Shown here in pieces: positions 34,074 to 60,406 of a stretch of DNA of 64,000 bases (within the stretch, counting starts at the first letter, position 1; every line of letters begins with the position of its first letter). The position numbers were made by a program, and so were the translations under genes. This stretch comes from Haloterrigena salifodinae (GTDB lineage: Archaea; Halobacteriota; Halobacteria; Halobacteriales; Natrialbaceae), in the NCBI RefSeq assembly GCF_003977755.1, contig NZ_RQWN01000001.1, positions 388,995 through 452,994 of the forward strand, written 5' to 3'. The notes under the pieces were generated by a model. The model saw nothing but the letters and a program-made list of their open reading frames with translations. It searched no databases and was not told the DNA's origin.

Positions 34074-34141
34074 CGCTCCGCTGGCGAGATGGACGAAGTC
34101 CGTCGAGGCTCGGAGCGGGAACGCAGTGATCGCTCCGTTGG
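34074..34141. repeat. duplicated tRNA-Glu 5' end with intervening hairpin
   Basis: CGCTCCGCTGG at 34074-34084 matches the tRNA 5' end CGCTCCGTTGG at 34131-34141 in 10 of 11 bases. Between them lie a small hairpin (GGAC, loop GAA, GTCC) and a hairpin with stem CGGAGCG (34111-34117) against CGCTCCG (34131-34137). Its loop, closed by a G-T pair, is GAACGCAGTGA (34119-34129), identical to that at 21779-21789. The 3' arm of this hairpin is the tRNA acceptor strand itself. Confidence 0.65.
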
Positions 34142-34206
34142 TGTAGTCCGGCCAATCATTTCGGCCTTTCGAGCCGATGACCTGGGTTCAAATCCCAGAC
34201 GGAGCA
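34132..34206 (+). tRNA. tRNA-Glu, anticodon TTC
   Basis: The 75 bases fold as a cloverleaf. Acceptor stem GCTCCGT (34132-34138) pairs with ACGGAGC (34199-34205), discriminator A34206. The anticodon stem is TCGGC/GCCGA with loop CTTTCGA, anticodon TTC at 34168-34170. The T-arm is CTGGG-TTCAAAT-CCCAG. No CCA is encoded. Both ends have degenerate second copies in the flanks. Confidence 0.96.
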
Positions 34207-34313
34207 CTTCTTCGCGAACAATATCGTGAGCGAAGACTGCTATCTGGCGATTTGAAGTAGAAAAACGCGAGTGTTAGCGAGCGTTTCGCGTAGTTCACAT
34301 CCTAGATGGAGCA
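34186..34313. repeat. tRNA-Glu 3'-end duplication with hairpin between
   Basis: The last 21 bases of the tRNA (34186-34206) recur at 34293-34313 with 18 of 21 identical. Between them are, in order, a hairpin 34209-34236 (stem TCTTCGC, loop GAACAATATCGTGA), an inverted T-arm scrap CTGGCGATTTGAA (34244-34256) and a hairpin with arms AAACGC and GCGTTT (about 34263-34286). The same order occurs after tRNA-Val. Confidence 0.7.
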
Positions 34314-60220: not shown

Positions 60221-60295
60221 GGGTTGGTGATCTAGTCCGGTTATGATACCTCCTTCACACGGAGGAAGTCGGCAGTTCAAATCTGCCCCAACCCA
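60221..60295 (+). tRNA. tRNA-Val, anticodon CAC
   Basis: The 75 bases fold as a cloverleaf. Acceptor stem GGGTTGG (60221-60227) pairs with CCAACCC (60288-60294), discriminator A60295. Anticodon stem CCTCC/GGAGG, loop TTCACAC, anticodon CAC at 60256-60258. T-arm GGCAG-TTCAAAT-CTGCC. No CCA is encoded. Confidence 0.96.
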
Positions 60296-60406
60296 CTACT
60301 TCTGTCGCGAACAACCTCGTGAGCGACAGAATCGTGACGATGGGCAGATTTGAATCAGGGAGTGAAGCGAAGCGGAACGACCGTGGTTCAAATCTGCCAC
60401 AACCCA
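60275..60406. repeat. tRNA-Val 3'-end duplication with hairpin between
   Basis: The last 21 bases of the tRNA (60275-60295) recur at 60386-60406 with 20 of 21 identical. Between them stand a 9 bp hairpin 60300-60331 (stem TTCTGTCGC, loop GAACAACCTCGTGA) and an inverted T-arm scrap GGCAGATTTGAA (60343-60354), which could pair with TTCAAATCTGCC of the second copy (60387-60398). The order equals that behind tRNA-Glu. Confidence 0.75.

Follow-up and report, generated by a model that had tools for sequence, protein, structure and literature searches.

The locus behind the tRNA-Val(CAC) gene of Haloterrigena salifodinae raises the question of why the last bases of a tRNA gene should occur twice in close succession, and what the DNA between the two copies is. 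In the window, i.e., the whole stretch of 64,000 nucleotides of contig NZ_RQWN01000001.1 that was analysed, this gene lies at 60221-60295 on the forward strand, as do all parts of the two units of the window (ARAGORN, which places it at 60221-60296; Rfam RF00005, 60221-60295, 60.5 bits), with its T54-N73 segment at 60276-60295. A repeat search found GTTCAAATCTGCCCCAACCCA both at 60275-60295 and, as a direct copy of G53-N73, at 60386-60406, with 20 of 21 bases identical and a spacing of 111, precisely where the initial annotation had placed the repeat. The 9-bp hairpin that it had described between the copies is evident in both sequence and fold (hairpin 1, 60300-60331; stem TTCTGTCGC/GCGACAGAA, loop GAACAACCTCGTGA). 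It is followed by an inverted copy of T-loop and T-stem, GGGCAGATTTGAA (60342-60354), complementary at 13 of 13 positions to 60276-60288 in the repeat search, and by a hairpin 2 module that fits our type I pattern, CAGGGAG...CGACCGTG (60355-60385). The inverted T-arm had been proposed to be able to pair with the second copy, and the repeat search indeed paired 60343-60360 with 60381-60398; together, the inverted T-arm and the direct copy make up the outer stem of hairpin 2. The RNA fold of 60297-60406 consists of exactly hairpins 1 and 2 (-48 kcal/mol, z = -6.3), and none of 200 shuffled versions folded equally well.

The same order had been reported behind tRNA-Glu. The tRNA-Glu(TTC) gene (34132-34206; ARAGORN, as 34132-34207; T54-N73 at 34187-34206), the second host tRNA gene of the window, is followed by the same parts in a more decayed state: hairpin 1 with loop GAACAATATCGTGA (34209-34236; sequence and fold), an inverted T-loop GATTTGAA (34249-34256; sequence), a hairpin 2 module (34257-34292; sequence and fold) and a direct copy of G53-N73 (34293-34313), of which the T54-N73 part (34294-34313) has 3 mismatches in 20 and was not detected by the repeat search at default settings. 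The fold of this unit has z = -3.6.

When every tRNA gene in the genome was read together with its downstream DNA, 26 of 46 had their own last 20 nt repeated behind them (at least 16/20 identical, within 260 nt), compared with 33 of 2058 comparisons with foreign tRNAs by the same criteria. The tRNA-Val unit matched other tRNA loci of its own genome (blastn), and several tRNAs are followed by two units in tandem. The loop motif GCGAACAANNTCGTGAGC occurs 11 times in the genome with at most one mismatch, every time shortly 3' of a tRNA gene; at most two mismatches gave 26 matches, and the reversed control 6.

Such copies could in principle be scars of larger tyrosine integrase islands at tRNA genes that have lost their middle, an outcome that the initial annotation had named as refuting its own proposal. 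Haloarchaeal prophages and islands do duplicate tRNA 3' ends, e.g., 22 nt of tRNA-Ala in Haloquadratum (PMC3119063, as far as the accessible part of that paper goes). However, in 924,680 nt scanned on both strands, made up of the window and 20 stretches of approximately 20 kb downstream of tRNA genes, a tRNA 3' end recurred only in the first 200 nt or so after the tRNA to which it belongs, a single stray match with three mismatches excepted; the 20-kb stretches contained no long-range copy and no larger element with such copies at its ends. Size and order of the units are also alike behind nearly all tRNA kinds, and neither a type I nor a type III module was recognised by pattern scans of viral contigs. 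The type III pattern gave no match there, and the 12 stretches matching type I were judged to be chance, as none stood behind a tRNA and several were apparently inside coding sequence. With the generic T-loop pattern at least 80 loci were returned from the viral contigs; among the matches listed, 10 had a G+C content of at least 0.5 and none of these was near a tRNA. In blastn searches plasmids gave no match, and phages only two records, from one unrelated Aeromonas phage, with 56% of the query covered. On these pattern scans and blastn searches a viral origin of the unit was rejected, and we consider the scar explanation very improbable.

The units are widespread in Halobacteria. A pattern comprising the inverted T-loop and a hairpin (GATTTGAAN{25,55}GTTCAAATC) was present in 348 of 391 genomes of the class sampled and in 81 of 86 genera, with no matches for the reversed control. 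In one other class of the phylum 1 of 80 genomes matched, and this lone AT-rich match looks like chance. The type I hairpin 2 pattern was found in 53 of 81 Halobacteria sampled and in none of 311 other genomes of the phylum; within the phylum, the units are restricted to Halobacteria. The only scan that reached other phyla used a strict form of the type I pattern and one named genome per GTDB species; it yielded 63 stretches, all with haloarchaeal titles but for one (‘Euryarchaeota archaeon’), and showed that five named Haloferax species other than Haloferax volcanii carry units. A failure of matches to be enriched at tRNAs would, according to the initial annotation, have spoken against it, and the enrichment is pronounced: 55 of the 63 stretches stand directly behind a tRNA in the same orientation, covering ten amino-acid kinds. 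Of 30 T-loop-pattern loci drawn from as many further genomes of the class, 29 likewise directly follow a tRNA gene in the same orientation. Among the remaining eight strict stretches, for which no upstream tRNA was called, we read four as lying at the edge of the locus, three as preceded by partial tRNA sequence and one as preceded by none. The latter (L369:6784-6830) is a type I unit without any upstream tRNA found in its 8-kb locus, a possible orphan.

The anatomy of the units was determined from 151 strictly defined cases out of 244 tRNA loci. The order is hairpin 1, inverted T-arm copy, hairpin 2 and direct tRNA copy from T54 to N73. The direct copy has sharp ends on both sides, at G53/T54 and at N73: identity to the own tRNA is 1.00 at G53 and 0.86-1.00 across T54-N73, and drops to 0.23 at -3 and to 0.49 one base past N73. 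The inverted arm spans the T-loop and fades along the T-stem. In hairpin 1 the stem sequence is free and covaries (60 distinct hairpins of the type), whereas the loop reads GA[A/G]CAANNYCG[T/C]GA, with an A-T/G-C pair that covaries within two G-A mismatches (a tandem G-A motif). The terminal part of hairpin 2 varies widely; of the approximately 108 hairpins that could be classified, one is clearly inverted and the others, about 107, share one orientation, and 42 of the 151 units fit no class.

Because these units were picked by their resemblance to the own tRNA, tracking of the host was retested with a generic motif, without selection on the match. At both position 57 (A in 34, G in 14; Fisher 2e-12) and position 59, the inverted arm agreed with the own tRNA in 48 of 48 cases. 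Behind tRNA-Arg(TCT), where three sister genomes have A57 and a fourth (G254) G57, arms and copy follow the tRNA. The type I module follows tRNAs of ten kinds, each time with that tRNA's own 3' end and without any mismatch in 38 of 55 cases. Site-specific insertion is favoured because a single module family is shared by all ten kinds and yet nearly always comes with a copy of the respective host tRNA. It was also considered whether, within the copy, the T-loop part is under stronger constraint than the acceptor part (0.19 vs. 0.26 mismatches, p 0.01, 43 units found by module alone); this result is not relied on, because fixed offsets misplace some units.

Arms that match the host exactly would also be expected from replication errors, in which template switching at the T-arm makes inverted and direct partial copies, quasipalindrome correction keeps the arms matched and nested errors let the hairpins grow. 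The nested hairpin modules and one loop inversion agree with such a process. Nevertheless, it does not account readily for ends that are fixed at G53/T54 and N73 over 151 units, for the same module in dozens of genera, for the strand bias described below or for the restriction to one class within the phylum, and we regard it as quite unlikely.

Mobility was assessed by comparison of four sister genomes, an empty site being called exact if the flank behind N73 in one species stands behind the copy in the other. A search for an empty site in close relatives had been advised in the initial annotation, and exact pairs of empty and filled sites in sister species were indeed found at four tRNA loci, i.e., Ala(CGC), Thr(TGT), Arg(GCG) and Gly(TCC). 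At Arg(GCG), a unit with a 20/20 copy stands between N73 and the flank in G254, and the same flank adjoins N73 directly in G356 and G000. Behind Arg(TCT) the number of units differs between sister genomes; further presence/absence differences between the sisters involve flanks too diverged for alignment. Excluded were ‘noT’ tRNA calls, an ‘inversion’ at L376 (taken as a false match of the regular expression), an empty call at Arg(CCT) due to a shifted copy, and two Asp pairs involving tandem tRNA genes. At Arg(GCG) and Ala(CGC) the empty flank is common to two other species, which favours gain without proving it. Since loss via the 20-bp direct repeat could also yield empty sites, gain remains inferred, as does our view that insertion, and not merely loss, drives the polymorphism.

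Arrays of units are polar: the proximal copy is closer to the tRNA sequence than the distal one in 11 cases, worse in one and equal in one. Modules are exchanged as well. Among 64 ortholog pairs, 15 kept hairpin 1 but had hairpin 2 swapped and 7 showed the opposite, and the best match of hairpin 2 in another genome stood behind a different tRNA in 58 of 88 cases. Behind Arg(TCT), hairpin 1 is the same in four species, and T-loop, inverted arm, copy and hairpin 2 changed jointly in one of them; a simple one-step insertion does not explain this joint change. The idea that the element supplies the tRNA end was tried and not retained: substitutions in tRNAs with units are not enriched in positions 54-73 (14/2060, compared with 54/5615 in positions 1-53), and nothing therefore shows that the element brings the tRNA end along, although this is a weak test with few changes.

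Which strand folds bears on the nature of the units. The sense strand gave the better RNA fold in 88 vs. 26 cases for hairpin 1 and in 51 vs. 10 for hairpin 2. Stem mismatches were G-T rather than A-C at 12:4 and 12:3 in the two hairpins (non-redundant), compared with 46:44 in control stems; summed from the hairpin 1 table, the ratio is approximately 29:8. The excess of G-T mismatches together with the sense-strand folding indicates that the tRNA-sense strand, as RNA or as single-stranded DNA, is the structured form.

This folding fits an RNA function as well. The units could be structured 3' trailer RNAs under selection, co-transcribed with the tRNA, released by tRNase Z cutting behind N73 and having a function of their own, with turnover being secondary. 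The covarying stems of hairpin 1 and the A-T/G-C pair within its tandem G-A motif point in the same direction. So do small RNAs of Haloferax volcanii: stable ones derived from pre-tRNA 3' trailers (PMC3544259), 11 tRFs (PMC3432209) and trailer RNAs of about 40 nt (table in PMC4695841) are described in the portions of these papers available to us. These trailer RNAs may be products of units, although units were not examined in that species. However, no unit is present behind about half of the tRNAs, and at a given tRNA one sister species may have a unit that another lacks; within the copy, the acceptor part has no pairing partner in the unit, yet is 0.86-0.97 identical; and among the Rfam 15 covariance models only that of the tRNA itself scored above the gathering score, i.e., no family was found for the unit. 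A functional trailer RNA as the whole explanation thus appears to us possible, albeit on the unlikely side; it may be true alongside a mobile element.

We consider it reasonably probable, though far from settled, that the units represent a haloarchaeal mobile element, gene-less and non-autonomous, which inserts behind N73 and duplicates T54-N73. The suggestion of a non-coding element that targets or arises at tRNA 3' ends is supported by the adjacency to tRNAs and the exact empty sites, and it holds well beyond the window. The element would enter exactly behind the discriminator base N73, and the segment from T54 to N73 (ca. 20 nt, derived from the target) would be duplicated, so that the tRNA remains intact. 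The inserted piece would form two hairpins on the tRNA-sense strand, the second flanked by the target's own T-loop, inverted on one side and direct on the other. New units would land beside the tRNA, and older ones, displaced outward, would undergo decay of their copies; units would be able to exchange the hairpin 2 module and would also be lost, probably through the direct repeat. A trans-acting enzyme has to be inferred, either a tyrosine recombinase that reads the T-loop or a Cas1-like integrase with duplication of the target, and none has been identified; that a folded single strand is what this enzyme reads is likewise an inference. The origin of the inverted arm is unexplained; our guess is that it may be copied from the target by snap-back copying across hairpin 2.

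A bolder version is doubtful and rather improbable in our view: the T-loop of any tRNA might serve as a universal docking box for RNA-borne or folded-strand insertion, with the released trailer (N73 to the next N73) being mobile and each insertion writing the target's T-arm into the element. The piece between one N73 and the next is what two tRNase Z cuts would free.

Among known systems, the attC sites of integrons (features taken from the part of PMC2727003 open to us) resemble the units as folded single-strand hairpins with little conserved sequence and inverted boundary boxes, with a spacer, unpaired bases, a variable terminal structure, a G|TT junction and cassettes that accumulate in arrays. 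Hairpin 2 shares the preferential folding of one strand with a variable terminal structure. It does not share the attC triplets AAC and GTT of the R'' and R' boxes as a pair (GTT in 150 of 151 units but AAC in only 56 of 151), and in the units the boundary box is the host T-loop, a tRNA takes the place of attI and the cassette is gene-less. The family 2 casposase of A. boonei reads TCAAATC, a T-loop sequence, and inserts at the 3' end of tRNA-Pro with a 14-15-bp duplication, and new repeats arise beside the leader in casposon/CRISPR systems, as in the unit arrays (PMC6614799, to the extent that its text is accessible). In contrast, the duplication in the units is 20-21 bp and starts at and includes the T-loop, whereas that of casposons lies downstream of TCAAATC; the insert contains an inverted copy of the target, no terminal inverted repeats were seen, and with ca. 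90-140 nt it is too short for a casposase gene and encodes no casposase. Tyrosine integrases at tRNA genes also leave a duplicated 3' end, and cleavage is thought to occur at loop borders (PMC8371274, from the available excerpt). Their islands differ from units of ca. 110 nt that occur behind nearly all tRNA kinds at once and carry no integrase gene; only 90 nt separate the copies within 60275-60406, where attL and attR would enclose one. Neither of these two precedents, integrase or casposase, fits the units fully.

The tyrT repeats of E. coli (RtT RNA) follow a tRNA gene in tandem, and every repeat includes a short stretch from the 3' end of that tRNA. They consist of 178-bp units, are known from one tRNA only and are not known to contain an inverted T-arm. 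The double-hairpin or repetitive hairpin-forming elements of mitochondrial DNA are gene-less, repeated and thought to be mobile; duplicated tRNA 3' ends or target-matched arms are not described in the accessible sections of PMC2800124. We found no description of the units in the open-access full-text literature, as far as its texts were available. Subscription papers were not covered and, since the coverage is partial, an earlier description cannot be excluded. The evidence suggests that a hitherto undescribed type of tiny mobile element lands at tRNA ends. If this is true, class-wide tiny non-coding units 3' of most kinds of tRNA gene would change the annotation of haloarchaeal tRNA loci and would provide a new link among tRNA genes, site-specific insertion and the recognition of folded strands known from integrons and CRISPR. 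Because some empty sites are exact, insertion can be tested directly in laboratory haloarchaea.

Some variants of the architecture were also observed. Hairpin 2 of many units is nested, with the same inner stems (GTCGCGCGCAGCGAAGCGAGCACGTC) within different outer layers, as if hairpins had been inserted into the loops of hairpins. A second register, in which inverted and direct copies of the acceptor 3' strand (GGACTCGCC ... CCCGGCGAGTCCA), and not of the T-arm, surround another hairpin, occurs behind tRNA-Ala (L018, L142 and L130) and tRNA-Arg(GCG) (L072 and L156). The trailers of tRNA-Lys(TTT) and tRNA-Cys at L015 resemble decayed units of which only arm fragments remain. Finally, tandem whole tRNA genes, a few hundred bases apart and with units between them, were encountered for tRNA-Asp (L027, L147, L179 and L421) and tRNA-Gly(GCC) (L019 and L174), as though a whole tRNA had at one time been included in the duplication.
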